From Membranipora membranacea (lineage: Eukaryota > Bryozoa > Gymnolaemata > Cheilostomatida > Membraniporidae), in assembly GCA_914767715.1 (NCBI GenBank), contig OU612070.1, positions 23,176,025 through 23,240,024 on the forward strand: a DNA stretch of 64,000 nt, read 5' to 3'. Positions 2,059 to 24,201 of the stretch are shown piece after piece. The notes under the pieces were generated by a model. The model saw only the letters and a program-made list of their open reading frames with translations. It made no database searches and was not told the origin of the DNA. Both the position numbers and the translations under genes were made by a program. How positions within the stretch are numbered: position 1 is the stretch's first letter; each line of letters starts with the position of its first letter.

Positions 2059-2326
2059 TCAATGAAACGATTTGCTGTAAAGTTGGTTTTCTACCATGTT
2101 GATATCACCGTTTTCGATCGCACCAGCCAAGGAGTAAATATTAGTACTATTCCGAGACATTCTCCCTTGCTTAGGTTGATCGTAACCACTATCATCTGGA
2201 TCATCGATATCATAGAGAGGTGAGGCGTAGTTATTTGTGTTCAGTCCCTGATGTGGCGTGTAAAGTGGATTCCTTCTCGCCATAATCATGTTCACTTTCT
2301 TCCTCTGTGCGGACTGATTCCGCTTT
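2059..2326 (-). other. R1 last exon: cytoplasmic tyrosine tail
   Basis: Encodes about 89 residues after the membrane helix, beginning with a basic cluster (RKRNQSAQRKKVN). It holds NPLY about 24 residues after the membrane, PLYDI, a GYDQP SH2-type site, and at the very end IYSLA and QLYSKSFH, whose tyrosines are 19 residues apart. The end has the same pattern as the R3 and R4 tails. The splice acceptor is at 2327-2328 and the phase is 2. Confidence 0.85.
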
Positions 2327-5300
2327 CTGAAACAATTCAACATTGTCAAAATACAGTTATGTGTACATGATGTCTTATGCCAGGCCGATTTTGGTAGCAA
2401 CCTGCCATCAATAACAGCAAACACAACCAAAGTTATCCCCTTGTTAGTGTATAGGATGCAACCCTACAGAAGTTGGATATTCAAAAGAGGGAAAGTCCCC
2501 TGCCGATGGCTAGCTGACGTTTACTCAACAAAAAAGCTTCTATCTTAGCTTGTGAAATTGATATTGGTTGACATTCAGCTGCCCAAAAGATAATTCATCT
2601 CTACTACTTCCAGTAGGTAGTTTCTGATGGTATTGTATTACTCCTCAATTTCTAATTGGATGATTACAATAACCGCGACAGACTTGAGAAAATACAAAGA
2701 GCAGCTCTGAAGATAATTTTTCCAGATTTAGAACACGATCATAGATTATCAGTCTTAGGCATCCCAAAACTCTGTGATTTTCTTTTTGATATCTCTTATT
2801 CACATTTTCTGCGTATAGTGAATAATGAATCACATCCTCTTTTTAGTGAACTACTTTTCAACAAGAATTCCAGAACATCCTCTCGAGCTATACAAATTTT
2901 TCGGCCAAAACTCTGCAGGACTGAAAGGCGGAGAAAAGGCTTTTTTAATTTTTTCATGACCTATCATGACAACGGTCTAGTATATAAATAATTTTTAGTA
3001 TGTTGTTTTTACTATGCCATACCATCGCTCGCATTCTGTACCATCTGTCATGATGATTGAATGAATACAAATCAAATCCAATCAAAATAATGAGTAGGCA
3101 GCTCACCTTATTACTACTACAATGATTGCTATGACGACCGCTAAGCTAATCACCCCCAGCACTCCTCCGATGGCACCAACCACAGTAATTGTCTGATTAT
3201 CCTCCTTGCTCTCCTTACTTTTGTCTCCTTTCTGATCAGATCCACCGGAAGCAGACTGAGGAGTTGTAGAATTTGCCGCCATTGTGCTATCTGGGAAAAA
3301 AATCAGAGCAAAATTAATATAATGTTTACCAAGGTGGTTCCTTTTGTTGGTTCAAGTATAATATTTGTAAGAATTAGGTAGACATACAAGGTTAGTCTGG
3401 AAATTTAAGGTCCTTAACTTGTTTTGGTAACACTAACTCATAGCCTGGACAAGCTGTCAGGATAGGTGGGGGGGGGGGGAAGGGACAACTTGTGCGATTT
3501 CTTTTCAAGTTGTCCTCTCTTGTCAAATGGATTTACCCAGGCTGTCCCTCCTCTCCCACCCACCCTTGACAGCCTGCCCATGCTAACTAACTCACCTGTA
3601 ATGTTATTGACTGATGTTATGTAATGTGTTGTAGCATTGCTGAGAGAACTTGTTGATGTTGAAGAAATCAAAGCGTTATTTGTTGTGGAAGCAGGTGTAA
3701 CTGTTGTGGGTTCGGCATTTATCAAGGTGGTGGATTTCACGGACGTTGATGGGCTTCTATCTGTTGATGGGACTGATGATGAAGTATAAGTTGGTGGGCT
3801 TGAAGAATTCATTACTATTGTTGAGCGGGTGTCTAGAGAAACAGCTGCTGTGGTTATTTCCTGGCCTGGTGTTGTAGAGGATAAACTTTTTCCTGCCGTT
3901 GTCATCTGATCTGTGCTCTTTGAGTTTGTTTCAGATGTGACACCGTTGGTGCTGGATAACTTCACTGATGTGGTTGGTTGTACAGAAGCTGATGTAATTC
4001 CAGTAGTAGTGGTAGTAGACGCAGTATGATTTGACCAAATATTTTTGGTCCTTGTAGGTACTGGATTAGTTTGAGTCATTTCTATGGTGGTGGTCTCGAA
4101 TACAGATGTCCATCTTGTGGAGGTAGCCCCTGGTGTTATAGGTTTGGTGACAGGGGATGATGTTGTACTCTGTGAGTTTCTCTGAATTGTCTGTGTTAAA
4201 GTAGATGGATTGGAAACGGAAGGTGACATTGTGGCTGTAACATTCTGCATGATTGTAGATGTGGTGCCAGTATCCCATGCAGTGCCCGTGGAGAGTGCTG
4301 TTGTCCCGACGCTACTTTGAGGCCGTTTGTTATCTGTTGTCTTATCTACAAAGAATGTGTTATCTACAAAGAATGGATGACATGTAGATAATATTGGCAA
4401 AATAGCACTGATAACACTCATGTCCATTTATAGTCTCGACTCTCAATACCCTGTGATATCGTGTGAGAAACCTTGATGTTGCTTGGTTTTTCGTTTTTTC
4501 TGATATCGGGTCTACGGACTGAATCCTGATGGGGCACAGGAGCATCTGAGGTCGGATGCTCTTCCTGACACCACCGTGACCCGCCGGGAAACCAACACGG
4601 GACCATTCGATTGAAAACCCATGCCTTATCCATTAGCACTGATATTGGTGATAAATATTAATAATAATAATAATAATACCTACCATATTTCTGACAGACT
4701 ATATAGGAAATATTCAGTCCAAAGTCGCAGGTGACAGCTTTTAGTGTGACTTTGTCCTGTGCGTTTATATGATACCGCAGGCAGTCATCTTTAGTAGAAT
4801 TCCAGACAGCATCTCTTACATTTGTAACATTAACCTCTCCGTACTGTTCTAAAACCGAAGTAGAACCAAAAATACACTGCAGGGATTTCCTTGTAGTAAG
4901 CAAACACAGGGCAGTGTTGGAGGAATAAATGTTTTGCTACAGTTTAATTTGACTACCACCAAATTTTAGCTAGCTGCGGTTGTAGTCTTTAAAAATTAAG
5001 GAGGGTGAGAAAATGTTATGCAAATACTTTACACCTATCCTTTCCCATCGGGAAAGTGGTTGATAATGAGATGCCACTACCAGCTATCCCGGCACTTTTC
5101 GAGCAATTAAACTAGACAAAGAAACTGCTTACCTCTTTGGCATGTTGTCTCATTCCAACCACATATGCCATCTTGCCACATATCAGTAACGATAAAGTCT
5201 TTGTTCCGAGACACAAACTGAAGCAATGTTGACTCATTGAAAGTCGGTAATGTTAGATTGTTGTTATTACAAACGTACTTTGCCTCAGTCCAGTTTACCA

Positions 5301-6635
5301 ACCCATGACTCGCCTTTATGAAAGTGTAGTCAGATTCTACTCCTAAAGGAGAAAAACCCCGTGGTAAATTTATGTTGTAGGTCTCATAAAACAAGAACAA
5401 GACGCTCAGAATACTGCATCATAAACTTATATCACTTTGGTCGTAAGCTGTTGACGCAGGGCTTCATCTCCGATTTCCTACCTCTCACCATCACTGCCAT
5501 AAACTCTAAAAAGTTCACATATGTCTGTTTTGGTGACCTATTAACGTGTTCATTATCAATTATCAATTTATCATCTCCTCACCTGTTCGGTAGACGGAAA
5601 GCTTCCAGGGACCTCCACATATTTGACTGCTATTACCAGAGCAGGTCTCATTGCATTTGTTATCGTCATCCTCACCATATCTGTCGTAGCCGTAATCTCC
5701 GCAGAAACATTCATGTCTCCATTCTAATCCAGCATACAGATAACCTGAACACAACAAAAACTGTGGTATAACAGTCCGTATATCATGTCATTATTATGCC
5801 TTCTACAAGTTTTACACACTACATGTGCAGAAGCATCGAAGGTGAGGCCAGCCAGAGACCATATACCTCTACGTCTGGTCAAGACTTCAGGTAAAGGCTA
5901 CCACAGCTCTCATTACGAAAAAGTAAATAAATCTCGGATTGATCTGACAGCCCATCTGTGATCTGGTTTCACAAATAGAAAGCTGACAGCATACTTGCAA
6001 GACTAGGGTTTGCAGATGATTGACAATCAACACGCACTGCAAACTCATTACCAACGAACTCACCTTTGTCTTGGCAGCAATCTATACATATGTCAATGGA
6101 CATTCCCTGCTGCTCACTACGGACAGAGACTCCATTTAGAGCTCTGTCTACAAGTGCCACACTAGTACCATCATCTCTGATATTCTCCCCGGTGTCAATA
6201 AAGCAACCGACATAAGTGTAGTTAGAGCAAAACACTGAAAATACAACATGGTAGATTATAGTTTAAGTGCACAAACGGTGCAAGATGCTGGTAGAGGCAT
6301 TTCATTATCAACCACTTTCTCCAGGGGAGAAAGTGGTTGATAATGAAATGCCTCTACCAGCATCTTGCACCGTTTGAGCACTTAAGCTAGGTAGATTATA
6401 GTGTGGTCATCAAATTTCTGCACTATATATAGTCCTGAGTGATGGAAAAATAATGAGATGTGTTTCTATTGGACTGTTGGGAACCTACCATATCTCCAAG
6501 AGGCAGCTTGCAGCCATTCGCTTCAATTTAAGAAACCCTGCCAGTGCAGGTGTGTTATTTTACATATATGTAAGACTTACCTCCATGGAATAGTTGTGAG
6601 GTGGAGATAATCACGAAAAGAATCACTGGAAACAT
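2059..6635 (-). CDS. R1: WSC + C-type lectin-like receptor with long mucin-like stalk, TM and tyrosine tail
   Basis: Eight exons, 5' to 3': 6581-6635, 6064-6234, 5583-5744, 5133-5342, 4684-4848, 3596-4363, 3107-3290, 2059-2326; about 660 residues. Residues 1-18 are a signal peptide (MFPVILFVIISTSQLFHG). Residues 19-129 are a WSC domain (YVGCF, CIDCCQDKGYLYAGLEW, CFCG, CNETC, ICGG). Residues 130-254 are one C-type lectin-like domain split by an intron (WTEAKYVC, LTLP, WQDGICGWN, then DDCLRY and YIVCQ); no EPN, QPD or WND calcium motif is seen. Residues 255-510 are a Ser/Thr-rich stalk. A helix lies near 546-570, followed by a basic stop-transfer. The tail (572-660) has NPLY, YASPLY, YDQP, IYSLA and a final QLY. 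All extracellular introns are phase 1; the one before the tail is phase 2. It is probably a plasma-membrane glycan or ligand receptor; the ligand is unknown. Confidence 0.85.
2656..2991 (+). pseudogene. LINE reverse-transcriptase 3' fragment in an R1 intron
   Basis: An open stretch of about 110 codons reads RLEKIQRAALKIIFPDLEHD, then a leucine-rich block (SVLGIPKLCDFLFD) and a basic end. This is the layout of the C-terminal end of many non-LTR retrotransposon proteins (LE-x-IQ-RAL-x-II). No palm-domain catalytic motifs are present. It lies in the intron between the R1 helix exon and the tail exon, antisense to R1, and is probably a 5'-truncated insertion. Confidence 0.65.
3441..3585. repeat. 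Foldback repeat, CCTGGgCAGGCTGTC type, copy 1
   Basis: Inverted arms begin with TAGCCTGGACAAGCTGTC near 3441 and end with TGACAGCCTGCCCATGCTA near 3585, with an inner G-run facing a C-rich run and a second inverted pair (GACAACTTG / CAAGTTGTC). The left-end start and G-rich inner sequence recur at 10119-10182. It sits in the R1 intron, about 10 nt from the stalk exon donor. Confidence 0.55.
4345..4380 (-). promoter_or_regulatory. Tandem duplicate splice acceptor of the R1 stalk exon
   Basis: An 18-nt unit with the acceptor core CATTCTTTGTAG is present twice. It gives two AG acceptors exactly 18 nt apart, with exon starts at 4363 and 4345. Both keep frame and differ by six residues (DNTFFV). 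Either could be used. Confidence 0.6.
4440..4648 (-). repeat. Decayed tRNA-derived SINE
   Basis: On the minus strand the head reads like a tRNA gene: an A-box-like GTGCTAATGGATAAGGCATG, an anticodon-loop-like TTTTCAATCG, and a T-arm-like stretch ending CCCGGCGGGTCACGG. The body follows with GTGTCAGGAAGAGCATCCGA, a stretch seen in many invertebrate SINEs. The B box is degenerate, so this is not a working tRNA. It lies in the R1 intron before the stalk exon. A (TAA)n microsatellite at about 4657-4678 borders its 5' side. Confidence 0.6.
5035..5115. repeat. Foldback element family M1, partial copy
   Basis: One arm (GGGAAAGTGGTTGATAATGA, then CCACTACCAGCTATCCC, ending ATTAAACTAG) matches the right arm of the complete M1 elements at 6261-6390 and 55429-55554. 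The left arm is missing. It lies in an R1 intron just downstream of the first lectin exon. Confidence 0.55.
6261..6390. mobile_element. Foldback (MITE-like) element family M1, complete copy
   Basis: A nearly perfect inverted repeat: arms of about 63 nt (TTTAAGTGCACAAACGGTGC inward to TATCAACCACTTTCTCC) around a loop of a few bases. It is flanked on both sides by GTAGATTATA (6251-6260 and 6391-6400), which looks like a 10-bp target-site duplication. It has no coding capacity and lies in the first R1 intron. Related copies are at 5035, 8046 and 55429. Confidence 0.7.
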
Positions 6636-7771
6636 CTCAGCATTTATTCACAACCGACCTCTCCCTATCAACAACTTCACAAATGGGTTGAGCTTCTCTG
6701 ATGTTAAGGAAACAATGTGGATATCTGAGGTCACACTATCATAGATCACCTGATAATTAATACAATGGTGATATCTGCTGATAAACACCAAGTGCTTCTG
6801 GGTCCTACAACTAATCTTTCAAGGCTTAGATCAAGATATAAACTGAAACTGATGACACCCTTGCCATTCCGCACTATCATGGTGAGAGTACATGATTAAT
6901 TTATTGTCTCTCTGACGCCTGACGAATATCAGGCAACTCTTTGCCATGAATAGTATATCAGGATTTTGGAGTTGCCTCCCCGAAGAAACACCTCGGGTCT
7001 GACTTATGCAGAGCTGATTCAAGCAGGGCTGATTTATGCAAGGTTGATCCTGATAACACTGACTCACAATGCTAATATTAAATAAATATTACGCCTCATT
7101 ACAGTGGTTGGAACATACAACACTATTTAGAACCATCAAAAAGTCCCGAATTTAGTGCGGAGAAATTCACCATGAATACAATAAAGGCTGAGATCGCGAT
7201 CAATAATTGGCTGATGTAGAGAGTTTCAGGGTCAGGCTCTTACTCTTTGGTTTCATTTTACTTTTGACCTGAGCGTCTCAAGCAGCCAGAGTTTAGTCAC
7301 AGTAGCAAAAAGTTAATTCTGTCTGAGATTTCCCTCTACAACCAATTGATATACGCGCTGGTAAACAATTCATATCATATATCAAAGGTTACGCGTTGAT
7401 TGTCCTTGTAGCACTAAGAAATTCAATGATGCAATAAAATATATATGCTTATAAGTTCTCTTAGTGCTGTTTGCACCTTCCTGTAATTCATAGAATCTTT
7501 CAAATACGCCTAGACCAGTATCAGAGTTTATCTCATGTATTTTGTAAAATGATAAATTGTATCAACTAACTCACTCAATACACTCTAATATTGTGTCAAG
7601 TATAAAGTTTTTTTGTATGAATTTTACTATTTGTGCGTGTCATTCATTCATGCATTGTTATTCTCGAGAAAAAATAACTGTACTACTGGATACTTAGTGT
7701 TGTCACTCGGCCACGTGATAAGGCTACATGATACACAATTATCTTTGCCGCTGTCATCACAGTAACACATA
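6636..7771. other. Intergenic: R1 promoter side and R2 3' UTR
   Basis: No coding signature on either strand. It must hold the R1 promoter (minus strand, just right of 6635) and the R2 3' UTR. I find no convincing TATA box and no AATAAA close to the R2 stop; the nearest on the minus strand is at 6900-6905. Confidence 0.5.
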
Positions 7772-10700
7772 TCAGGCTGTAGTGTGCAACAACAGTGCCG
7801 TCATCCCAATGAAGAATGCTACTAGACCACTATTGCGACCTACAAAATAAAAATAAACGGCTATGACTTTCAACAGTGATCCATATGATAACCTCCATGA
7901 AATGTCATACAGATAGCAAGGCAACGAGAAAAATTAGGTTTGCCATAGACGTAATAATCAATACTAAGTCTTTGGGTTGTATCAGAGACTATAGATATAT
8001 CTATAGTCTCTGGTTGTATCATAAGGATATAATTTTTTATGGAAATCGTAAATTGAGTGTCAGATTTTCAAACATTCCTGGAGAGAAAGGAATGTTTGAT
8101 AATGGAATGAAACAAACTCTCACTCCAAGCCGTTTGAGCATTTAAACTAGGTTTGACATGATCATGATGTTCAGCCACAAGTTGCTTACCTTTAAAATGA
8201 CATGCGGCGTTTTTCTCGCTTGAAGTTACTGTAGGTATGGTAGTTGCCACATCTACAAAATACAAGAAATTATTTTAATCAGAATATAAAAACAAATAGC
8301 AGATAGGAAGGATAATTGTATAATTCAGAAAATTATTCATCGTAGTACTTGTTGCTTCACTATGTCGTAGTCCAAGGCCGACTCATTTTTACAGATGTTG
8401 GTTTAAAACAAGGTGTCAAGTTCACAGTCTACAATCAGGTTGAAACACACGGATTTTAAAGGTTGGGTGGCCTTGGGTAGGCAGTGAACATCACGCATCG
8501 GTAGGGCTTAAAACATTAAGATCCAATAAACCCGAGACCTTGTTCTTACGCTAAAGTTTTAATCTCGTGACATAGACTCTCACCTGTTTGATTCTGCTGA
8601 CAGACAAGAGTAAGTGCTGCCGGTTTATCAGTACAGTCTATAGCTTTCTTTGTTATCTCATAAGTGATATCTGTTCCGTTTACAAAGTCAGTTATTGAGT
8701 AGGAATAACAGTGTCCATGTTTTACATTACTATCTCTTTCTATAGCTGGCAGTGGATCACCATCAACTGTAAACAAAATGCGGAGCAGTTACAAGATGAC
8801 AAGACAGGCATAAGTGCGGCCATACTGAAAACAACACAGACTAAGAAGCCTCTGTAATTATTACATTCCCAATGATAAAACAAGTTGAAAATAACAGAAA
8901 GTTTATTTGAACCCAATGCATTTTCTTTTCTCTATGGCTCACACATCAACATATCTGATTTCCCTTGGCATATTGTCAGTGATAGTAGCTTGTAACTTTT
9001 ATTATACATGAATATGAACGTATAAGTCTTTTTCTCTGATTTTTACTCCAACAAAAAACTTCGATATTATAGATAGTTTTTCTCCCGATTGCACCAAAAT
9101 GCTCTAATGTAAAAATTTTGGTCAGATCATGTCTGCCAAGGGATACTGGATGAAAACAATATAATTGCTGTTTCTTTTAAAAAAGGTATTTAAATTATTT
9201 TTTCTTATGCACTATAGATATGATATCTCACCTGTTTCACAGCTATATCTCCCAGCTCCAAACCAGTAGTACTTAGATGTAGAGTTTAGATAGATATAGT
9301 CATTAGTAGCCTCTGTAATCGCCGTAAAATCAGTATAGTTAGACCCTCCGCATTCATTTAACTTCATGGCATCACTCCATGTAAATTTAGCTTTCGAATA
9401 GCATGACCTAAACTTTGGTTCCATGTGTTTATAGCGCTGATACTCGTTGAAATGCTGCGGACAGCTGGCATCTCCAATAACCCAGAGGTTTGGGCAGAAA
9501 TACGGTAGGACAGCATCACACTCATAGTCTTTCACTGTACAGTAAGATGTTGGCCTTTTGCAGTGAAGAGCTAAACAATTCTTCTCTCCAGTTCTGTCAT
9601 TTATTTCCAATCTGTAGGATAGTCTCATGCCAGCTATTGATCGCTCTGTAATGAGAGGACGCTAACAATTATGGTTCGTATTCATATTATGGCTCATGTT
9701 CATGTTACCTCTTAGCTATCGCTGAGATCTGATAATGTTATGTTGTCGGACTAGCAGTAATAATGATAAATTTCTATATGTCTATTTGACAGAGGAAGAA
9801 AATTAACCCTTACCTGGGAAAGGAACAGTCATTTTAGTAATATACCTAGGACCATCTTAATCAAGATAAATCCAATTTACCTGCATTAGGAGTTGCCCCA
9901 CCTGTGAGCCGGCAACGGCTCACGATTAAAATGGGGCAACCAAAATGCAGGCAAATTTAATCTATCAATTTAACTTGCTCTAAGACCATCCAGCATGATC
10001 AGAGGTATATCAATGAAGTTTAGTTCATTGGGTGGGTATAGGGCAGCAAAATTTCTACTCTAGTGTAGATCAGTTTTTTTTAAAATTCTTTCTGCAATTT
10101 ATACCCACCCAATACAGTTAGCCTGGGCAGGCTGTCGGGGTTGATATATTATCACCTAACCACCCCTGGCAGCCTGCCTGGTCTACGGTAACATAGCAAT
10201 GATACCTGGTTGGTTTAAGTTCCATCCACATTTTCCATCTACCCAGATAGAGCTATTGATAATTCTACCATCACTCTGCAGCAGCTGTATAACATCAGAC
10301 TCGTTGAGTGAAGGGAGAGTCATGTTGAGGAGTTCACACTCCTTCCGAGCTTCTAACCAGTTGAGATTTGTTGCAGATGCATTAAGCACCTGGTACACGA
10401 TACCAGCTGTAGACAGGCAGAAAATATTTGGCGTTGATATATAAGGTTCTGATCTATCTATGTGGTATTATGCTACATATCAAAACATATGAATTTTGCT
10501 CTTGCTAAGACGATGAAAGGCAGCCGGCTATATGGCCCTGTTTATGACAAAACAGAGGTTGGGCTGCCCCTAAATAGGGACGCAAGTTGCTCGAAATCCT
10601 GGTACTGAGAGTGTGATACATCCTATAAAACTATGCATCGTAGACGTAGAGTGTGCAGCGAGCTGTCAAAAACTGAAAGATTCACTTCATTTGGTCTTAG

Positions 10701-10849
10701 CCAATAGGCCAAGAAGCCGACTATGGCATGCTGCGTAATGCTGTTTTTAAATATTGAGGTTAGTCACTTTCACACTTCATATTTGATGAATACTTACAAG
10801 AATAATGCAGTTGAGTGATAATAACTAAAAGACACACTGAAATCCTCAT
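7772..10849 (-). CDS. R2: two-domain C-type lectin-like protein, probably GPI-anchored
   Basis: Six exons: 10798-10849, 10206-10406, 9232-9645, 8584-8766, 8190-8252, 7772-7839; about 326 residues, all joins phase 1. Residues 1-17 are a signal peptide (MRISVCLLVIITQLHYS). Residues 18-283 form two lectin-like domains homologous to those of R3: WLEARKEC, MTLPSLNESDV, WVDGKCGWN; then LPYFCPN closing domain 1; then CYSKAKFTWSDAM, GGSNYTDF, YWFGAGRY and KAIDCTDKP for domain 2. A short Thr/Ser linker follows, and the last exon encodes GRNSGLVAFFIGMTALLLHTTA-stop: small residues, then an uncharged hydrophobic C-terminus with no basic tail. That is the pattern of a GPI-attachment signal. There is no WSC domain and no tyrosine tail. 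It could act as a co-receptor, decoy or shed lectin; the function is not known. Confidence 0.8.
7983..8012. repeat. 30-bp perfect palindrome
   Basis: CAGAGACTATAGATA and its exact reverse complement lie directly next to each other without a spacer, inside an R2 intron (7840-8189). The origin is unknown; it could be the centre of a foldback element. Confidence 0.8.
8046..8155. repeat. Foldback element family M1, diverged copy
   Basis: Inverted arms (CAAACATTCCT / AGGAATGTTTGATAATG) and an end GCCGTTTGAGCATTTAAACT resemble the complete M1 copy at 6261-6390. It lies in the R2 intron, next to the 30-bp palindrome. Confidence 0.45.
9232..9645 (-). other. R2 414-nt exon: second half of lectin domain 1 plus first half of lectin domain 2
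   Basis: Phase 1 at both ends and exactly 138 codons, the same length as the R3 exon 14262-14675, with high similarity throughout (RLSYRLEINDRTG, SYCTVKDYECDAVLPYFCPN, RSCYSK, CGGSNYTDF, YWFGAGRYSCETG). R1 has no such exon and accordingly has only one lectin domain. Confidence 0.85.
9872..9958. repeat. Foldback element family M2, copy 1
   Basis: Arms AATTTACCTGCATTAGGAGT and the inverted CCAAAATGCAGGCAAATTT, with GGAGTTGCCCCA facing TGGGGCAACC and an inner hairpin GTGAGCCG/CGGCTCAC. It lies in the R2 intron after the first lectin exon. Other copies are at 14722 and 61598. Confidence 0.6.
10119..10182. repeat. Foldback repeat, CCTGGgCAGGCTGTC type, copy 2
   Basis: TAGCCTGGGCAGGCTGTC near the left end faces GGCAGCCTGCCTGG near the right end. 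It resembles the repeat at 3441-3585 and, like it, lies beside a splice donor (that of the R2 exon ending at 10206). Confidence 0.55.
10535..10720 (+). repeat. Dispersed repeat family M3, copy 1
   Basis: Starts with the small hairpin CCCTGTTTATGACAAAACAG, followed by GGGCTGCCCCTAAATAGGGA, CGCAAGTTGC and GTGTGCAGCGAGCTG, and ends CCAATAGGCCAAGAAGC. The same order recurs at 24586-24820 (+) and 29128-29356 (-). It lies in the first R2 intron, where R1 and R3 carry their WSC exons. It is non-coding. Confidence 0.7.
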
Positions 10850-11726
10850 CTCTATTTGCTGTTCTTGCTAGTGGTTATGGTTGTAGGTGTGCAATGTCAA
10901 TTTGCCCAATGTCTGCTGAAACTGTGAAAATAAGATTCTCAGTTGACCACACAAACCCTGTCTTAAAGTTTATATCACAATACCCTTGTAGATAATTTCA
11001 CACAATACTACATTTTCTGATAAGCTCTGATCGGCATTTTGGAAGGGGAAACTTCAAGAGTGGCCTAGGTTAAACCTTGTGGCCTTATCAAGTTCAAGTG
11101 AATCATTGTTTGATACGTATATCCAATCCATTGTCGTATTTGGGTGTGACAGCTGACGGCGATAATATTCAGTATATGCAGCCCCACAGTTTGTTATGGA
11201 ATAAAGTATGAAGGTGTGTATATATGAAGCAGGGGATATCGAGATATGTTCAGTGATGGTTTTTTCATCGCTGAGTAGTAACAAAAAACAAAGTCTAGCA
11301 ATATCAAATGCAGCTTGTAGCCAGGGAGTCTTGTGTCTTCTGTCCCAAACTCCCTGATGATGCGTCCACTCTCAAGATTCTAATGAAACTATTTAAGAAT
11401 CGTTCCCCCAAATATGATGGAGGACAACTCCTGAATGATTTGTGTTGGGTTGATAAACAGACACTATGACATGACTCTTATCCCATAACCTAGCGTTTTA
11501 TTAGTGAAAAATCAATCTGACAACACTCATATAGTTATTGAAGTAAAGCAAAGACCTAATCTGCTATGTATACTATATGAGTCAGAGTAAACTCTAGAAA
11601 ATAATGTAGAATTGCACCAAGAGAAACAACGTAAATAAAAAGACAGAACATAAGTAATCAGGTTCTGCTTATTGAAAAGAAATGAAAACCCATCATCAAA
11701 ACATATGAACAGTAGGGAACTTCTTG
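10850..11726. other. Intergenic: R2 promoter side and R3 3' UTR
   Basis: No supported coding exon. A 76-codon minus-strand open frame at 11054-11284 shows no lectin, WSC or other recognisable signature and lacks an obvious splice partner. The R3 3' UTR occupies the left part of this gap next to 11727. Confidence 0.5.
11497..11502 (-). terminator. Poly(A) signal candidate of R3
   Basis: AATAAA on the minus strand, 225 nt after the R3 stop. Confidence 0.5.
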
Positions 11727-12525
11727 TTATTGAGATGGGATATAAAGCTCGTTCTCCACTAAGATCCTGCCACCGACCACATCCTCAGCCATACTATAAA
11801 CTCCTTCGTCCTCAATGTCAGTAGACTTTCGACCCTTACCTTCTGCCTGAGTTCCTGCTGATGGAAGCTCAGCACCGGGTTGGAGTGTCCCACCTTCACT
11901 CTGAGGCAAAGCATAGGTGTAATCCTCTTCCATAACTACCAGAGAAGTTCTTTCACTGTTGCCGGTGAAAATATCATCGTCAATTTCGCCGTAGATTGCA
12001 CTGGAGCGATACGATGGCAAGCGGGCAGGTATGACAGGTTGAGCAGAGTCATAAAGCAATGAAGCAGATCTCTGGGGATTAGCATGAGCAGCTGATGTTT
12101 TAGTGACTGGTGATGGAGTTGAGTAGTGTGTCTCACAGTTGTCCATCTCAGTGTAGATCACACTGCCTCTGTTCATTGCATACTGGTTATCTGATGATTG
12201 AGGGGTAGCTATTGACGACTGCGAGAGAATCAACTGTTTAGAACTTCGGTCCATAGTCAGATATCCTTCTCGTTTCTTATTTATCTGGTCATCAACACTT
12301 GCCTCACCTTGTGTTTCAGAGATCTGAGATTGTTTCATTACGGCTGCGTAACCATTTTCGTCAATGTCTGTTAGAATTGGGCCTAGAGTTGACAGCTTGT
12401 TTCCGTGGTTGAGGGCTTTCAGAGTTTCAGGGTCCTCTGGATGGGAGAGTGTTCTTGATGTATGATATGCTGGGTTTGTGAAGTTTGTGTTTTGTACTCT
12501 TGCTTTCATCTCCAACCTCTTTTTC
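11727..12525 (-). other. R3 last exon: 266-residue tyrosine-rich cytoplasmic tail
   Basis: One exon encodes the whole tail. In order it shows a basic start (RKKRLEMKAR), NPAYHTS, GYAAV, GYLTM, QYAMN, IYTEM, HYSTP, LYDSA, SYRSS, IYGEI, YTYAL, VYSMA and ELYIPSQ. YxxM sites are the classic p85 SH2 ligands and NPxY binds PTB domains; use of these sites in this organism is inferred. The last two tyrosines are 18 residues apart, as in R4. Confidence 0.85.
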
Positions 12526-15500
12526 CTTAAAAGAGAGATTTAATAGCGAAATATAAATCGTTTGTCCTGACGCCTATTCTCACATCAGACCAAGCAATGC
12601 GTATCCAATAAGAATAGAACTATGGTTACACTGTGCATGGTCAGAGCTATCGAATGACCAAAGACGTTAATGCTCTATGAAGCCGTTAATAGAGCTCAGA
12701 GTTATCCCCTCATATAAATTAATGGGGCACCTCTGTGCACATGTTGTTGGAAACAAGAGAGTTCAAGTAAGTTTTGCCTTGACAGTTTTGTCCACTGAAG
12801 AACCATGTAAGTACCATTGAAGGACCAAATAAGTTTGGTTCATTGAAGGGTAGATTGAGTCGGATAACTGCCAGATACTTACCTTCTCATGGCAAGGATA
12901 GATATGACAATCATGAGTAGTACAAGAAGAAAAGTGGCGACGATACTGCTCACCATTGTCATGTCAGAGTTAAATGTTGAGTTCAACACTATTGGTGGTT
13001 TTTTGGTTGAGGTTGGTGGCACTGTAACAAAACAAGTAACAAGCCCAACTTGAGAAGATAGAAGGGAATATGAAAAACTTTCATCACGTCAAAATTTATC
13101 TGTCTAGCAAATTCGTAGACTGGTATTGCAATATAAATCTTGACAGATTTTAAAGTGCGTGAGCAAGAACTTTTTGGTTTGTGTCCCTCTTTGTACAGGC
13201 ACCAGTCTCCTATTTGACTTATAGTGACTCGAGTTTAAATTTCTCTCACCTGTATATGTGGATTGTGCTGTGTCATTGTTATCCCTTGTCGTTATATGAG
13301 TTGTAGTAGTCTTGATTGTCGAAGATGTTGGTATCTCAGCACTCGTAGTTGTTACAGCTAAACATACAATATCGTAAGATTATAACAAAAACTTGACTGG
13401 TCTGATGGCAAAACTTGCTGCAAAACAGCGAAAATTTTGTGTGTAATTTTTGTAGTGAAATGGAACAAACAAAGTGCTGGTTGATGTTATGCCATGCATG
13501 AAACATCACATTTAATATGAAATAGTCTGAGCCCCTCAGTCTCTTGCCCCCGCCCAACAGCCCTCCCAACAGCCCACCCTCCCCCCCGCCTTACCGGCCA
13601 AGGAAAAGAATCAAACAGTAAGTAATGATGACGTTTTTTCTATTTCTAGTGACACTTCTGCGCAATATAACTATAGGCAAATTTTTTATTGTTGATTGCG
13701 TCGTCTCACCTGTCTGAGTCTGCTGACAGACTAGAGTCAGTGCTGGTTTATCAGTACAGTCGATGGCTTTCTTTGTCACTTTATATCTGATATGAGTAGA
13801 GTTTACAATATCAGTAACAAAATAAGAGAAGCAGTCTCCATCTCCAACATCATTGTCTCTTTTAATGGGCTCCACTATTTTACCTTGTACTATATAAATA
13901 TTCAAAAGCATATTAATCACATATTGTAAGTTATGTAGATTTCACATATAATATAATTATGCCTCATGACAACAAAACCTTGTCTCAAAATTGGAGTTGT
14001 GTGCCCTTGTAATATCATGATTGATTAATTAATATTCGGGTAAAGCTGATTCGTCAATCACTTGGATGAATATCACACAGTTTTCTCATGTTTGGCCATT
14101 AAAGACAATCTCTTGAAATCAGTGATAGCATTTTGTGGATAAGGCTACCAACATGACAGTCAATATGTGTTGTAACACAATAATTTGGAGCTACTAAGCA
14201 AGCACCGCATTATAATACTGCTTGCCAAAAAATGAAAACCATACCCAAAAATCCTGCTTACCTGTTTCACAGTCATATCTCCCGGCACCAAACCAGTAAA
14301 ACTTGGAGGATGAATTGAGGTAGACAAAGCCTTGGACAGATTCAGTGATAGCAGCAAAATCTGTGTAATTTGATCCTCCACACTTGTTTAAGTTCATGGC
14401 GCCAGTCCAGTTGTATCGATCCTTTGAATAGCATGACCTATAGCGAGGGACGTGGTGGTTGTAGCGCTGGTACTGGTGGAGTCCTTCAGGGCAATTATCG
14501 TCACCGATATCCCAAAGATTAGGACAGAAGTAGGGAAGGGCAACTTCACAATCATAGTCTTTGACTGTACAGTACGAGGTTGGACGTGGACAGTGCATGG
14601 CCAAGCAGTTCTCAGCACCTGTTTTATCACTAATATCCAGCCTGTATGACAATCTCATGCTGGGTATCGATCGCTCTACAAATAAGAACAAGTCGCATGG
14701 GAGTAGTAGTAGATCAAGTTAGATCAAGTTTGCCTGCATCCAAGTTGCTCCCCCTTCACTGATAAGCCAGTGGAGCAACTCAGAATGCAGGCAAACTGAA
14801 TCAACCTTGGTCATTCAGGTCCCTGTTTGGTCTAGAGCAGAAGCAGGATCATTCAGTACTTATGAAGTTGAACTTGTAGAAACTAATGATGCTAATACCA
14901 TTAAACTGTATTAGGTGTTTATTGCACTGCAGGTATATAAATGAATATAACTTATATTTATTCTGACGCCAGAGTTTAGGGTCATGTACTTTCAACCGAA
15001 ATTCACAATACAATGCACCGATTCTCAGCTTGCAGAATGATCTCTTCAAAGGTCATATGGTGAAATTTTTACAGTTACTCAATGACTGGGACACCATGTC
15101 CCCATTTGTGAACTTTTACCTGGTTGGTCGAGGTTCCATCCACATCTTCCATCCATCCACATGTATGTGTTTGTTACTCGGTTGAGAGTACCATTGTCAG
15201 CCTGTACTATCCCTAACACATCTGACTCAGTCAGGGTCGGTAAGGTCATGTTGTGACTCTCACATACCGACAGCGCTTCTGACCAGCTCAGGAAATTAGA
15301 TGTCCCTATAATCTGAAGGCCGCTGTCTCCTACAACATTATCACTCACACATTATACTGGTAAAATGTTGATCTGTAACATGCTGTGGATGTATGGTTAA
15401 CTTTAAAACTTGTTTAGAATCTGCTGAAACAGAGAATGAATGCATATGGAACATTAGCTCTTATAGCTGATCAAATAATGTTTTGTGTGATTTGAAGCTA

Positions 15501-17234
15501 ACAATTCTTATACGCGACAGAAATCCACTGCAATGTTGCCACACTCTTCTACAAAATCCAAAACAGCACCACAGATTGTAGGATATAACTATCTTTACGC
15601 TGTGAGCAGAGATTTGCCATGTCTAGGGCTTAATATTTTAGTACTCTTTGTATACCACGTTCCCTCCCCCTCCCCCGTCGTGCTGCAAGCTAAAAATGTT
15701 CATCAAAATTTCCCCACGGCCAACAATCATGATAGATTAGATAGTAAATTCCTTTAGGTTGACCAACAATGAATAGGAGATTTTAGATTACCCACATTAA
15801 TCCATTGGGTCTATATATTTGACTCTAGTAGTTTTTTTAGACCTAGAGACGTTCTCCTGATATATTCTTACCCTTTGTGTCATATACTGAGCTGACTTGC
15901 GCGCCACCGCATACTTTGTCAGCATCACCCTGACATTTTACAGAGCACTGAGATTCCATATCGCGGCCATATCTGTCATAAACATCATCTCCACAGTAAC
16001 AGACATGTCCTAGCTGAAGACCAGCATACCGATAACCTGTACAAAGTATGACAAAATGAAAAATGGAAGACAATGAAATATGAATGAAAATGAAAAATGA
16101 ATAGAAATCGAAAATGAATGAAAATGAACACCACGGCCTTTAGTATGAAATTAGAATTGGAAGGCCACTGACACCGTGTTCTATCTGTTGACCGACAAAA
16201 GTGACTTTGCCAAATACAATCACATTTCCAGGGCCAACCACGCAGAGTAGAACAGGAGGAGAGATCGCGTGATCCTGTGAGAATTATATCCAAAAAGTAA
16301 TTATCTGGGCATTTCTGTTAGAGCCTGGCAGGAATCGTAAATTCACCATGATTGCACAATCATGATGATCATTGTTATAATAAGAAGGCTATTATGACAG
16401 TGCCTCTCTTGTGCAAGATGACAGCTTCGATGTTACAGTCACCAGGAAGTGCTTGTTTCTTGTATTGCACTTCCTGGAGACTGTGACATCATAATGCAGA
16501 GAATGAGATCATATCACAAATAACTGCCTGACTATAACATGCATTGGTCTTTGGGTACATTTACCATTTGATGTGCAGTTGCTAATACAGATTTCAGCCG
16601 TAGCAGAATCATTGAGATCGATATAGTAACTATCCAGTGCTCTGTCTGTTAGGTTATCGGCCTCTTGCTGAACATCTCTGAAGCATCCCAGATATCGATA
16701 AGCATCTAAAGTAAATTAAAACATAGCTACAATATGATTACTGTGCCAAACTGTAAGGAGCCGACGGACACTACTGCTGGTATAATTATTTATTTGCATT
16801 ATTTAGGTGACAGAATTACATTACAAGTACATTATTTATAGTCTTCAAGACTAAAGACAGGCTAACAGCCAGGTAACTTCAATTGGGATTTAGTATGTAT
16901 GAGTGATGCTGGTGGCTATTATTACATTTTGGTTTTAATTTCATCAAAATTATTTAGCAAAATTTAGAAGCACCAAAAGGGCATCATTCTGACAATCAAA
17001 ATAAAAAAGGTAATCGCTAGAGGAAACATACAAGGTACAAAAACCCCAGTCATAGAATAACCAAACTATCTTTGATCGATTGCCTCAAAACTATGAATTC
17101 CAGTCTTTGTGAGCACCATGACCCTAAAATATCATAAAATTGCAGATCATCTGCACAAAATCTCTCAACTCACCGTTGAATTCGCTGCAAAATGCAAACA
17201 CCAAAATAACAACGAGAAACAAATGCCCTTCCAT
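11727..17234 (-). CDS. R3: WSC + two C-type lectin-like domains, TM, long tyrosine-rich tail
   Basis: Nine exons: 17174-17234, 16565-16705, 15872-16036, 15120-15329, 14262-14675, 13710-13889, 13250-13357, 12883-13021, 11727-12525; about 738 residues. Residues 1-20 are a signal peptide (MEGHLFLVVILVFAFCSEFN). Residues 21-122 are a WSC domain (YRYLGCFRD, YRYAGLQLGHVCYCG, VCGG). Residues 123-390 are two lectin-like domains (WSEALSVC, NMTLP, WMDGRCGWN; LPYFCPN; CYSKDRYNWTGAM, YWFGAGRY, KAIDCTDKPALTLVCQQ). A short Thr-rich stalk follows. The helix lies near 449-470 (VATFLLVLLMIVISILAM). The 266-residue tail has NPAY, YLTM and YTEM (PI3K p85 type), YGEI, YTYAL, VYSMA and a final ELYIPSQ. Phases are 1 throughout except 2 before the tail. 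It is probably a signalling receptor with a richer docking tail than R1. Confidence 0.86.
14262..14675 (-). other. R3 414-nt exon: second half of lectin domain 1 plus first half of lectin domain 2
   Basis: The same 138 codons and phase-1 borders as the R2 exon at 9232-9645. It contains LAMHCPRPTSYCTVKDYDC, ALPYFCPN (typical lectin-domain end), then a new domain start RSCYSKDRYNWTGAM, GGSNYTDFAAITE and KFYWFGAGRYDCETG. Confidence 0.86.
14722..14803. repeat. Foldback element family M2, copy 2
   Basis: GATCAAGTTTGCCTGCAT at the left, inverted as ATGCAGGCAAACTGAATC at the right, with GTTGCTCC/GGAGCAAC inside. Resembles 9872-9958 and 61598-61705. It lies in an R3 intron. Confidence 0.65.
16425..16555. 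repeat. Family M4 element, partial copy
   Basis: Contains the hairpin CCAGGAAGTGC / GCACTTCCTGG around a CTTGTTTCTTGTATT loop, then CTGTGACATCATAATGCAGA, and ends AACATGCATTGGTCTTTGGG. The same blocks, same order, occur at 42948-43164, and the terminal part at 53184-53368. It lies in the R3 intron between the two WSC exons. Confidence 0.65.
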
Positions 17235-18689: not shown

Positions 18690-18835
18690 TACTCTCAAAC
18701 AGGACATGAGAGTTATTTACACTTGTGGGTGTTGGGGCCGGGACAATCAACCTTGAAAGCTCCCCCAGTGGGACTCAAACCCAGAACTTCAGCAGCACCA
18801 ATCGTCTGCCAAAAATTAGTGGGTTGATGGCGCTA
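18690..18835 (-). repeat. Possible tRNA-derived SINE
   Basis: On the minus strand, TTCTGGGTTTGAGTCCCACT matches a tRNA B box with its T-arm, and the 40 nt before it could carry a weak A box (GGCAGACGATTGG). No closed acceptor stem is seen, so a functional tRNA is unlikely. Confidence 0.35.
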
Positions 18836-19739
18836 ATTGACAAGCCTGCTATTCACATGCAGACTATCACTGACTCGAGATGTACCAGTCGCAGACTTAC
18901 AACCATCCTTGTTTTTAAACCGCTGGCCAGCAGAAAGTTGTACCTTGTGCATCACCCGAGACGAGGGAAGTGTCAGGGTAACTGAAGCCGTATATTTACA
19001 TCATTATAGAAAAGTAAGCCTATTATGATGAACAAAAATACTTTATATAAAAGCGTGCGTAGAGTTGTCTTTACATGTCTCATGAGACCATAACTCTAAC
19101 AGTTTGATATCAAAACAACAAATAGCTTCTCAAATATTGTATTAAAAGTTTGTTTATGTTGCCATAATCACATTGCATACGGATGTTCACGTTGTGGGTA
19201 TTCCTATTGGTTTAATTATTTGGTTATTTCTTAGTTTAATGTTATCCAGCTCACATTTTCTGCATGTTCAGTGCTATATACCGGCCATCAGCCCGCAGTC
19301 TAATGTAATATCTCACCAGCATCTCTTTATGATCGAAAAATCAAATTCGTTGCCCGAGATCTAAGGCCTGGTCCACTAACCATAAACCAATTCTGACATC
19401 AAAAAACCATAAGCCGATTCTGACGCGAGTCATAGCGGAAGAGTCATAGTTGTCTATGCAACAAGTGGTGGGGCTGCTGACTAGCAAGAAAAGCATATTT
19501 ACTAAGTTCTACATTAAGAGGTATAATAGCTTTAATAATTGACACTGGTTGCTTATAATTTGATGCATGACGTTTCCAAAGTGTCAATACTCTTGGCGTT
19601 TTCCATTTCAATTGTTCAATAAACAACTTTTCTTATTAGTTTAGTGAATCATTTCAAACAGGAGCTAAATTGTATAAATTGCCGAGAGCTCATTTTTGGA
19701 AGTTTTATTTATAAATATTTAAAGGTTTATATATTTTCA

Positions 19740-19745
19740 TTTATT
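19740..19745 (-). terminator. Poly(A) signal candidate of R4
   Basis: AATAAA on the minus strand about 230 nt after the R4 stop; a second hexamer is at 19703-19708. Confidence 0.45.
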
Positions 19746-19971
19746 ACAAGTTTTTTTCATTGCAAAATATATTTTATCAAATCACACTCATTGCTATTCT
19801 GGGCTCTGTATAATATAAACCAATGATAAGAATGTTGATTGTCTATGTCTAAGGTATACACTGGCACATATAATTTGACCATAGTTACGTTCATTCTTTG
19901 TTAAGTGACATTACAAAATGTAAAAAGATTATTCTAAAGCAAAGTTCGGGAAAGCAACATGGAAATGCAAA

Positions 19972-20368
19972 TCAGGTTCCATAAAGATCATTATCTACAA
20001 CAACTAAATCATCTTTTATCTCCTCAGCCAAGCAATAGATGTCGGTCCCCTCATAATCCGAGCCCATATATGCACCTGGATGTCGGGGTGGATAACTGGC
20101 TTCTGCCGTTGAGTTCTCATACACCGTCTCTGCCTCATAATACAAACTTTCCTGCTGCTTGTCAATATCACTAACTACTCTTTCTACACTTGTGGTGTTG
20201 GGTACTTGGGAATAGTAGACATCTGTTTCATCTACTGGCAAACCAATAACAGTTGCCTGTACAGAACCTATTTCGCTGTTAAAGGTTTCTTGAGTGCTAT
20301 ATGATGGATTGTTGTACCTTTTAGGAGTAGTTGAACTCTTGGCAGGTTTCTTTCGGAAGATGTTGTGC
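19972..20368 (-). other. R4 last exon: cytoplasmic tyrosine tail
   Basis: Encodes about 132 residues. Sites in order: RYNNPSYST (NPxY), VYYSQVP, LYYEAE, VYENS (a Y-x-N Grb2-type site), GAYMGSDYEG, IYCLAEE and NDLYGT. The last two tyrosines are 18 residues apart, with the same hydrophobic and acidic pattern between them as in R1 and R3. Confidence 0.83.
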
Positions 20369-23300
20369 CTGCAATGATATGTAAATCATGGCTAAACAAG
20401 ATAACATAGCTTGAAGATTGATTACTTCATTAGTTGGCCTTAATAGGCTGTTATAACCATTTAAAAGGTGGTTTTATTGTCCGATCATCTCCGCATTTCA
20501 GTTGTAATATAGAGTAAGCAACATCCTCTGTTCTCCATCCCAAATATTGAACTAAATTTCTGTTCGACGTAAGGAGGGTCTGTATGGAAATATCTCTTGG
20601 CGACAATGCACAAAGATATGATATGATTGTATTACCAACAGTGCTAAAACAATAACTTGATGTTATCAATCAATCTTTTCATAAAATTGTCTTTATCTTT
20701 TATCTTATCTTTTGACCTTGGGAACTTACAAAAATAACACAGAATCATGCTCTGAAGTAAGAGGGAAGGTCACACAGTATCTCATATTGATATTATATGT
20801 GCTTATTATATGTGCTTATAACATGAGTTACAATCATTTAAAAAAATCTACTACTGCCACTTATTTGCGAAATTTTTATGAAGCAGTATTCCAAGAAGAC
20901 ATATACCTGCGGTGTCCTATGACCAGTCCCACTATAAGAGCAAGTATGAGAACTAGACCTCCGCTAACACCAGCAGCTACTGGAACTACTAGTTTATCTG
21001 TCTCTTCATCATTTTGTGACACCTTAGCAACTCCACTGTTGGACATATCTAGGCAAAGCAAATATTAATTTTTTAACCAATGCTCAATATATAACAATAT
21101 ACGATCACACTTTATGATAAGTTCTGCAATTTGCTCAGAACTAGCACAGAAGCATTAGAATGGAAAATTCCACAAGGAACAAAAATCCCAAACAGACCAT
21201 TAAAGTGACAGGACCAGAATTTAAGAACTAAAGCATTGCTGAACATCAAAATTGCTGCTATAAATAGAACAAGTTTGCTCTCTCTGTTCTGGTGATGGGG
21301 ATTATTGCCGAGGTCATATATCATATAATTGCAGACACAATACCTTAATTTTGCATCTGATCCAGATAAGAGGGACAATGAGTGATCTACAGACTGTGCA
21401 ATTCGGAAATCACAATCACAATTACAAACAATGCATCAGTTTTGAGCATGGTAAAATGGTAAACTGGTTAGAGTGTCAAATATAACCAATGTCTCAATAC
21501 ATAGTTGAATTCTCATTTCGTGTGTTTATCCAGTGGGGTAATATTAGCTAGAGTTAAGATTAGCTAGCACCAATTTAAGCTAGCAAATGTGGAAGTTCAT
21601 AAAATGAGAATGTTGAGTAAATGTTAAATCGCTAGTTCAAGCATGTGCAAAAACCTAATTGCTTACTACTATACCAAGTGTTTATCTAAAAAAGTATTGA
21701 TTTGATACAAATGTTAAAAGGTTCTATGGAACACTTAGAAAGAGTGGAACGGTAGTTTATCAGTAAAGCACTAACCTAGCTCAGCGTCTACTCCATGAAC
21801 ACTCATATTCTCCCTTATTTTCTCACTCTGCTGTGTTCTGTTGTCGTCTGTCAGCTCATAGTTTGTGCTCTGAGCAGAGACAGATGTGTTCGAAGGTTGA
21901 GTTGTCGAAATGATGAAATCAGTGGTTGGTACGGCGGGTATGGCTGTCTTTGCAGACAAGTTTAGACTGATTGGTTCAACTTTGATAGTAGATCTCAACA
22001 GGTCAGCTTTAGATGTTCTTACAGTAGTTTTAAGGGGTATTGCACCCTTGGTGGTCAAAGTTTGTAGACGCTTCATTGACGTGATCTTGTTTTTATAGGG
22101 TGTTGTTGTCGTTGGTATGGTGGTAGTCACTTTCTTCATTCTGAATTTTGTATTTTTTTTTCCAGGTGTTGTCCTAAAAGTTGGCCTTGTAACTACATTA
22201 GGCTTCTTTATAATGGTTGGTTTTTCTGTAAAATGACAGCATTGATAAGAAACTGAAATTACTATCTGTGGCAAGACTGAATTAAAAAAAATGCAAGAAA
22301 ACACCCACTGCAAGCAGCTGGTGTTAGGTCTTGCACATGCAATAATATGGCAGGTTATGGTCAACCAAGGTTGCACTGTGCACTGTTTGTCTAGTTCTCA
22401 GGGTCATAATCATTTGGAAGCGATAGTAAATTTTACAACAATGCGCATTACTCAAACAAGGTACAATAACCAAAACCATTTTTAGTATTTAGGGGGATGC
22501 AAGGGGATGGTGCCCCCTTCCTACTTTGTCTAGGGGGATACATCCCCTATATATCACAACCCAGGTTACTGCCAGCTGGTGAGTACATCAATATGAGTAT
22601 TCCAAAATTTGGCAACAAGTGATGCATTTTCATTTGTAATCACCACAGGGCTCCGCCCCAGACCCTGCGAATGACCTAGCCGGCCCCCTGGACTCCCGGC
22701 CTGGTTGGCATCCCCAAATCTTATATTTTCCACTTCTAACACTGACCAAATACGATATGAAACAATCAAGGTAACACAAACTGCCAATACCATCATGATA
22801 TGTCAGAGTAAGTGTAATGTATGTCTAGTCCAGTTGAATTTGGCCGATCATGCTCACAATGCAAAACAAACTTTCACTCAAACGCCGTTTTTGTCTTTCA
22901 TCCCCATGTACAGGAAATCAGGAACGAACACTCTGAATAAGAGTGAACACCACTCAGTACTCGCAATCAATTATACATATCAGTATTGAACCTCGCCACT
23001 TAGAAAGTCTGATCAGTTCAATACCACATGGAGAGAATATCTCGGGTGTAAACACTTGCATTCTGACCGGGTGTGCTAGCACAGTTTGACCAGACCCCTT
23101 TCAAGTCAAGACAAGTCGATATGTTACAATTATTTAGTGGTTAGTTAGAATTACGAATATTTTCTCATTCAAATATTCCACCCTCACTTACCTATTTCGT
23201 ATATAGCTAATAAAACTCTTTTCCAGCGCTGAGGTTTTGAATTTCTCCAGCAGTTATCTGTTTTTGCAACACTTTGCTGCTCGTCCAGATTTTCAAAGCA

Positions 23301-24201
23301 AAAACATTGATTCTTACTGCGGCTAATTCCAAAGTGAGGAGAATCTAAAAGTAGGTGATGATACTCAGCTACATCTGAAGATGCATGAACAGAAATGGAA
23401 AGGACAGCTGATTTCTAACAAAGCAAAAATATTCTCATCAAATAGAAAATGTAACCCTGCCCGAGCAAATGCAACTAGATAAAACTGCCAGGGATAGTAA
23501 AGTTGCTACACAGGGCTATTCTCAGCCAAAAATGATGCTGGGAGTTCTAATAAAGGTTTGGCTTATTTTATAAATAATCTGTGATTTACCCAGCTAACAT
23601 TGTGTTTCGATACATCTAACAAATCACAAAAACTTGTGCTGGTACCCTGTTCAAAAACCAAGACCGGCAGGTCCACATACTTTGTGATCATGAACCATAT
23701 GAGCAATTGAGATCTGATGCTCCAGAATCACACAGCTCAATTAATCTAGATCTATCATTCAAAGAGGAACAACAAATAAAACCTAGCACCAGTTTAACAT
23801 TTTAGCATGACTTACTTGTGCAGAAGGCTGAACATTTGTTTACATCTGTAAGTTTAGTCATTTTGCTGTTAGTTTTCATATACTTGTTGTTCCATGTACA
23901 GCAGCCTTTGAGTTTTGCTGCAGACATCACCATCCCTAGATACAAAGAAGTAACTTACCACAAGTACAAATGCTTCTGCTGGCAAATACTATTACTATTA
24001 TACGATTTTCTATGATCTAGTTCTACGCATAAAAGATGGTGATCGATTTACCTAAAACCTGATCCAACAAATCATTTAGCATAGTATGCTGCCTCGTTGT
24101 AAGTTTGAGTACCTAATAAATGTAGACTGATTGGGTGGAGTGGTCAACCTACCTGCTAGTGCTAATAAACTGATCCAATGAAGTATATGTGTTTGTCTCA
24201 T
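19972..24201 (-). CDS. R4: divergent WSC receptor without lectin domain, TM, tyrosine tail
   Basis: Six exons: 24153-24201, 23816-23935, 23192-23344, 21776-22225, 20907-21048, 19972-20368; about 436 residues. Residues 1-16 are a signal peptide (MRQTHILHWISLLALA). Residues 17-107 are a worn WSC domain read from the cysteine order: LKGCCTW, MTKLTDVNKCSAFC, then FGISRSKNQCFC; the ICGG end is missing. Residues 108-257 are a Thr/Lys-rich stalk. The helix is VAAGVSGGLVLILALIVGLV. The tail (306-436) has NPSY, VYYSQ, LYYEAE, VYENS, IYCLA and a final DLYGT. The intron pattern (phase 1, then 2 before the tail) equals that of R1 and R3, and the WSC is cut at the same place. No lectin exon is found between 22226 and 23191. 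One donor, at 21775, is the less usual GTTAGT. Confidence 0.77.

Follow-up and report, generated by a model that had tools for sequence, protein, structure and literature searches.

The 64,000-nucleotide stretch considered here (the window; positions 23176025-23240024 of contig C6, chromosome 6) belongs to the genome of Membranipora membranacea, given in the accessible part of its published description as 339.4 Mb in 11 chromosomes and 21 scaffolds (PMC10290214); our own searches covered 339,339,785 bases in 18 contigs. The mitochondrial COX1 gene, on contig C18, translated with the invertebrate mitochondrial code, is 92% identical to that of Membranipora grandicella, and the named matches that come next among the 120 listed belong to bryozoan genera. 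The host is a bryozoan and not a sponge, and the sponge or cnidarian setting assumed in a preliminary description of the stretch is set aside. On the minus strand, four genes that we call A, B, C and D follow one another in a row, from the start codon of A at 24201 to the stop codon of D, ending at 2059. Four adjacent minus-strand genes had been proposed at this place, and the proposal is borne out by exon chains that run without a frame break. We suggest that A, B and D encode single-pass cell-surface receptors, and that C encodes a relative without a cytoplasmic tail, probably lipid-anchored.

Gene A (19972..24201) is predicted to encode 446 amino acids on six exons (24201-24153, 23935-23816, 23374-23192, 22225-21776, 21048-20907 and 20368-19972): a signal peptide, an exon pair for a degenerate WSC-like module (23192..23935) from which the later WSC cysteines are missing, a stalk, a transmembrane (TM) segment and a tail of 135 residues (19972..20368), with NPSY about 22 residues past the membrane and the C-terminal sequence IYCLAEEIKDDLVVVDNDLYGT. 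Gene B (11727..17234) is modelled on nine exons (17234-17174, 16705-16565, 16036-15872, 15329-15120, 14675-14262, 13883 or 13889-13710, 13357-13250, 13021-12883 and 12525-11727), and its product, of 736 amino acids as modelled, or 738 if exon 6 begins at its upstream acceptor, would run from a signal peptide through a WSC domain on two exons (15872..16705), a pair of C-type-lectin-like domains (CTLD1 and CTLD2; 13710..15329) and a short stalk to a TM segment and a 269-residue tail (11727..12525), which carries NPAY about 18 residues past the membrane, two YxxM motifs and the C-terminal VYSMAEDVVGGRILVENELYIPSQ. One exon in the middle, 14675-14262, encodes the latter half of CTLD1 together with the opening half of CTLD2. 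Gene C (7772..10849; 326 amino acids) has six exons (10849-10798, 10406-10206, 9645-9232, 8766-8584, 8252-8190 and 7839-7772) for a predicted signal peptide, CTLD1, CTLD2, a short linker and a hydrophobic C-terminus of the glycosylphosphatidylinositol (GPI) type, with neither WSC domain nor tail: the last exon (7772..7839) encodes the hydrophobic end LVAFFIGMTALLLHTTA and then stops at once. Gene D (2059..6635; 654 amino acids), on eight exons (6635-6581, 6234-6064, 5744-5583, 5342-5133, 4848-4684, 4345-3596, 3290-3107 and 2326-2059), would join a signal peptide, a WSC domain on two exons (5583..6234), a single CTLD (4684..5342) split by a phase-1 intron as in CTLD1 of B and C, a 247-residue stalk of which 46% is Ser/Thr, a TM segment and an 89-residue tail (2059..2326) with NPLY about 19 residues past the membrane and the C-terminal IYSLAGAIENGDINMVENQLYSKSFH. 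The introns of D also hold repeat-like material: intron 1 contains a hairpin with 64-nt arms, 97% complementary (6259-6389), resembling a miniature inverted-repeat transposable element, a 42-nt partial copy of which lies in intron 4 (5043-5084), and the last intron contains plus-strand frame pieces that look by eye like a non-long-terminal-repeat reverse transcriptase (2656-2991), as does a stretch at 26485-27320, with no Pfam family matched at 0.01.

The four genes had been credited with one shared plan. A hydrophobic N-terminal segment is indeed present in each, and the extracellular introns are of phase 1, but a common module order does not hold, since only B and D have a WSC domain followed by a CTLD; the shared architecture is overstated in the preliminary description. 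Across the four models, phase 1 occurs at all 22 ectodomain junctions and phase 2 at all three junctions from TM segment to tail. Because phase 1 had been sought while the splice sites were picked and so had guided the models, the sites were later re-scored regardless of phase, using a simple consensus of our own, within a range of 90 nt and an open frame. The chosen donor scored highest in range at every one of the 25 junctions, the chosen acceptor at 20 of them, the exceptions being A4, B6, B9, D6 and D8; a higher-scoring acceptor lies 6 nt upstream at B6, 51 nt upstream at exon 4 of A and 18 nt upstream at exon 6 of D, the last two leaving the phase unchanged.

These figures bear on the possibility that the models merge exons of different transcripts, so that WSC domain, CTLD and TM segment are not parts of one protein. 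The models are read from genomic DNA alone, the acceptor is not the best in range at those five junctions, and for the first exons there is only a start codon and hydrophobicity to go by. Against this, frames, phases and splice sites chain unbroken through all four genes, the donors are best in range throughout, the order of the CTLD exons recurs in B, C and D and that of the WSC exons in B and D, and two short reading frames that cover the middle CTLD exon, P0006 and P0007, align along the whole of predicted exon 5. We hold such merging to be improbable.

The membrane anchors, described earlier as three TM segments with tyrosine tails and one GPI type, agree with the hydropathy of the products: A, B and D have one strong TM segment each (mean hydropathy 2.9, 3.2 and 3.4), and the C-terminus of C is a hydrophobic stretch after which nothing follows, like a GPI signal. 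The tails of A, B and D have a common signature, which consists of a membrane-proximal NPxY, found in all three (residues 22, 18 and 19), and a C-terminal Y[SC][LM]A-(x9-11)-V[ED]N-x-LY. When the tails were compared in pairs, shuffles scored as high as the observed alignment in 0/2000 cases for A and B, 5/2000 for A and D and 12/2000 for B and D; NPxY by itself turns up in 3-4% of the shuffles of each tail. A genome search with gene A also retrieved an unlinked tail frame on chromosome 8 (C8:10280033-10280185) that is 52% identical over A residues 395-446 (E 0.0024), at a locus that reads as a gene with WSC domain, stalk, TM segment and tail (Pfam WSC 8.1e-16, two exons joined by eye). Its tail was equalled by shuffles in 0/2000 cases against A, 2/2000 against B and 1/2000 against D. 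A scan for the C-terminal signature in all six frames of 66 loci, which amount to 287 kb with overlaps and are not a random sample, found it only in A, B, D and the chromosome 8 gene, and the flanks of the window, over 30 kb on the left and 10 kb on the right, gave no further tail motif. A second match to gene A, at C9:24489242 (E 0.43), looks like chance.

The region around the chromosome 8 relative (C8:10260500-10280999) contains two WSC-stalk-TM genes adjoining a long PACL-type simple repeat, one of them with the A-like C-terminal tyrosine tail. The other, near 10.26 Mb, has a WSC domain and a TM segment, and its frame through the TM segment stops about 15 residues on; the tail pattern does not occur in the 8 kb read there, where a spliced tail is possible.

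That the cluster comprises four receptors with both WSC and C-type lectin domains, as first described, holds in part. In Pfam searches the curated WSC cut-off (PF01822, 27.8 bits) is passed only by B (61.1 bits, E 1.2e-16) and D (58.1 bits, E 1.1e-15), and the closest PDB match to the WSC domain of B is Kremen-1 (8.1e-10); A stays below the cut-off (10.5 bits, E 0.76), C has no WSC match at E up to 1, and none of the four reaches the Lectin_C cut-off. Further Pfam matches below their cut-offs fall on stalk, TM or juxtamembrane stretches and were discounted: RIFIN (E 1.8e-5, 25.3 bits against a cut-off of 32, residues 358-480, over stalk and TM segment), SIT, CD34 and EphA2_TM in B, TM_ErbB1 in A and D, and Orf78 in D.

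The WSC-like part of gene A is best read as a degenerate WSC module, which the comparisons support moderately. A profile of the B and D WSC domains scored no higher on A than on 313/989 of its shuffles, a profile-profile comparison detected nothing, and in pairwise alignment 467/1000 shuffles did as well against B and 157/1000 against D. With the chromosome 8 relative, whose exon border was set by eye, added to the profile, A scores 9.3 bits, which 0/997 shuffles reach, and in the pairwise alignment 10/2000 shuffles do as well.

For the CTLDs, Pfam Lectin_C (PF00059, cut-off 22.6 bits) matches B at 16.5 and C at 16.6 bits (E 0.014 both), and the search gave no Lectin_C match in D or A. A profile of the five cluster copies compared with PDB found 29 sequences at E up to 10, five of them below 0.01; 27 of the 29 are presumably C-type-lectin-like proteins, going by their names, the remainder being one N-acetylglucosamine-specific lectin and one RTX protein. 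The two top matches are to Ly75 (about 1e-6, best 9.3e-7) and are sums of several weak stretches, the best single stretch having E 0.62; the best match to a short chain is L-selectin (5e-4). A C-type-lectin-like fold is supported, in a divergent form, the homology resting on this PDB profile search. Within the cluster, the CTLD of D matches CTLD1, in B as well as in C, better than any of 1000 shuffles (0/1000 each); against CTLD2 the figure is 101/1000. That CTLD1 and CTLD2 of B are copies of each other was considered and found weak (33/1000). Calcium-dependent sugar-binding C-type lectins carry EPN or QPD, plus WND. None of EPN, QPD, EPD, QPN and WND occurs in the proteins of A, B, C or D, and the relaxed form W[NS]D has a single match, at residue 174 of C.

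The preliminary description also saw in the cluster an expanding recognition family, and the evidence does not support a rapid expansion. The CTLD module of C has seven matches in the genome at E up to 1 (eight candidates), all within the cluster, and the flanks are without the tail motif, as said. B and C are 68% identical in the middle CTLD exon. Over 259 codons of their CTLDs pS is 0.75 and pN 0.21, and dN/dS is 0.21 in the only one of three blocks in which dS is unsaturated; because synonymous sites are near saturation and pN is low, the comparison indicates that the duplication is old and that the module is under purifying selection. The two short reading frames mentioned above came from a protein search with C: P0006 is identical to C at 135/138 residues and P0007 at 100/138 (72%; 97/138 to B), which suggests that P0006 probably comes from the same or a very close species and P0007 from another.

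Conservation of this kind also weighs on two functional alternatives. One is that the proteins are innate immune pattern-recognition receptors, whose WSC domains and CTLDs bind microbial surface glycans and whose tails set off phagocytosis or signalling. Both domains are abundant in the genome, with at least 145 exon matches for WSC (150 of 262 candidates scored) and at least 147 for Lectin_C (150 of 533), and combinations of WSC with C-type lectin domains have been proposed as immune in bivalves, in the part of that survey open to us (PMC10140915). The cluster CTLDs, on the other side, are without the calcium/sugar motif, and their module is conserved and, as far as searched, not expanded. 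An immune role is possible and somewhat doubtful. The other alternative is that they are allorecognition receptors that decide on fusion or rejection between neighbouring colonies. Bryozoans are colonial, and their fusion may depend on relatedness, according to the accessible text of PMC11686985. Such a role would be in keeping with tandem receptors of which one lacks a tail. High polymorphism is expected of allorecognition genes, yet P0006, a single further copy of one exon, agrees with C at all but three residues, and B and C are under purifying selection. Allorecognition is unlikely on present evidence, and we would give it very little weight.

Our best explanation, to which we would give an even chance, is that the receptors of the cluster serve adhesion or endocytosis, binding a ligand with the ectodomain and docking adaptors with the tail, and that C is a tail-less partner or decoy. 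It is supported by the WSC and CTLD matches, the signal, TM and GPI-type segments, the tail similarity in excess of shuffles, the C-terminal signature limited to four genes among the loci scanned, the NPxY of all three tails, the lack of EPN, QPD and WND, the purifying selection on the CTLDs and the 72% identical exon in P0007. In such receptors, the stalks would hold the WSC and CTLD modules off the membrane, and the ectodomain may bind a glycan or glycoprotein carried by a neighbouring surface or by the matrix, presumably not by the classical calcium-dependent sugar site, because its EPN, QPD and WND motifs are missing. NPxY and YxxM are standard adaptor-binding motifs and would act as such here. 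Upon ligand binding or clustering, the tail would be phosphorylated or recognised by adaptors of the phosphotyrosine-binding (PTB) and Src homology 2 (SH2) types, and the adaptor-bound tail could then lead to adhesion signalling, clathrin uptake or both, while the tail-less C would compete for, or present, the same ligand. Since the tail is common to a WSC receptor elsewhere in the genome, diversification is likely to have proceeded by the swapping of ectodomains over a signalling module that is itself conserved.

Several observations weigh against this adhesion or endocytic reading. The receptors are known here from genomic sequence alone. The B-D tail comparison reaches only 12/2000, with one shuffle far above the observed score, and NPxY and YxxM are both absent from the last frame of the chromosome 8 tail. 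The motifs were spotted after the tails had been viewed, so that the shuffle fractions for single motifs are optimistic, those of the pairwise tests less so. Two genome searches, one with the complete B protein and one with the D tail, returned no tail except their own; the former gave 61 matches (61 of 232 candidates scored), 12 in the window and 49 of the WSC type elsewhere. An immunoreceptor tyrosine-based activation motif (ITAM, as YxxL/I-x6-8-YxxL/I) is present in 0/3 tails of A, B and D, and a match to the inhibitory counterpart (ITIM-like, as [SIVL]xYxx[IVL]) in 1/3, that of A, where 44% of shuffles reach it; because there is no ITAM and the ITIM-like match is at shuffle level, a standard immunoreceptor signal is not shown.

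A bolder proposal, and in our judgement a long shot, would be a bryozoan receptor superfamily defined by the conserved tail tyrosine module (Y[SC][LM]A...V[ED]NxLY, often accompanied by NPxY) rather than by the ectodomain. WSC-only and WSC-CTLD ectodomains would be interchangeable on that module, GPI forms would act as decoys, and the superfamily would serve colony-level recognition of self, neighbour or settler. If true, it would provide a first molecular handle on colony-level recognition in bryozoans. Even under our preferred explanation, of adhesion or endocytic receptors, the cluster and its tail signature are concrete genes to express and perturb in a group that is colonial and some members of which fuse with relatives, and for which the parts of the open-access literature searched name no receptor for colony fusion. 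The signature could also serve as a sequence tag for counting further members in other bryozoan genomes. WSC ectodomains are mainly known from fungi and Kremen, and the cluster would place them, in a lophotrochozoan, on receptors whose tail is of a signalling type.

As to the surroundings of the cluster, the left neighbours (C6:23146025-23176024) look by eye like B-box/TRIM-type genes and a formyltetrahydrofolate-dehydrogenase-like gene. Within the window, the plus strand at 43264-60047 holds an open frame of 3090 codons with long Ser/Glu/Pro/Ala repeats, after which come an ankyrin exon (57778-58068; Ank_4 E 4.9e-19) and then a Pre-SET-like exon (59751-60047; E 1.1e-4, below the cut-off); it looks like an EHMT/G9a-type histone methyltransferase gene with a giant first part.

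The architecture had been put forward as new for a receptor. In searches of open-access full text, to the exclusion of most subscription literature, no description of a WSC-CTLD-TM-tail arrangement or of such bryozoan receptors came up among the papers listed, and to that extent the claim stands; the pairing of WSC and CTLD, on the other hand, is not unheard of, because polycystin-1, a survey of bivalves and three other loci of the same genome all offer it. Kremen-1 and Kremen-2 are, like B and D, single-pass receptors with a WSC domain. The order of domains in Kremen is Kringle-WSC-CUB-TM, so that Kringle and CUB stand in place of the CTLD, and neither is found by Pfam at E up to 1 in the cluster proteins. 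Polycystin-1 combines a WSC domain with a C-type lectin domain in a single chain, and in this the PKD1 family resembles B and D; it is very large and spans the membrane eleven times, with LRR, PKD, REJ and GAIN parts, unlike A, B and D, which have one TM segment, and the window proteins, in which these parts are unmatched by Pfam at E up to 1.

Within the genome, three other loci have WSC and CTLD matches within about 6 kb of each other, at 2.63 Mb of contig C1, 5.04 Mb of chromosome 8 and 13.73 Mb of contig C9 (among the matches listed, by eye), each of which may be a single gene. They resemble the cluster in having both domains close together on phase-1 exons, and on C1 a CTLD exon also follows the WSC exon; the tail pattern is not matched in the stretches read at these loci. 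They differ from the cluster in that the C1 locus has many CTLD exons with EPN and WND (by eye), and that at C8:5036800-5038400 and C9:13727700-13734700 the WSC exons lie between the exons for the first and second CTLD halves. The latter two loci give the appearance of a lectin domain interrupted by the insertion of a WSC domain. At C1:2620000-2649999 the CTLD exons form a long series, accompanied by a WSC exon and by one that resembles fibronectin II, and the whole may be a giant gene, or a cluster, of the mannose-receptor kind (by eye).

Among other animals, the accessible part of the bivalve survey lists WSC among the domains of unique C-type lectin proteins, so that both domains are combined in lophotrochozoans there too, a likeness by description only, without domain order, TM segment or tail (PMC10140915); in the portions at hand, a figure legend on sponge receptors lists WSC among their domains (PMC8242945), and in a sea urchin WSC is paired with SRCR (PMC10855680). 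A protein search with B matched five fungal proteins over 13-15% of its length, the size of the WSC part. Fungal Wsc sensors consist of a WSC domain, a Ser/Thr-rich stalk, one TM segment and a tail; unlike B and D they are without a CTLD, and it is A and the chromosome 8 gene that have the same layout.

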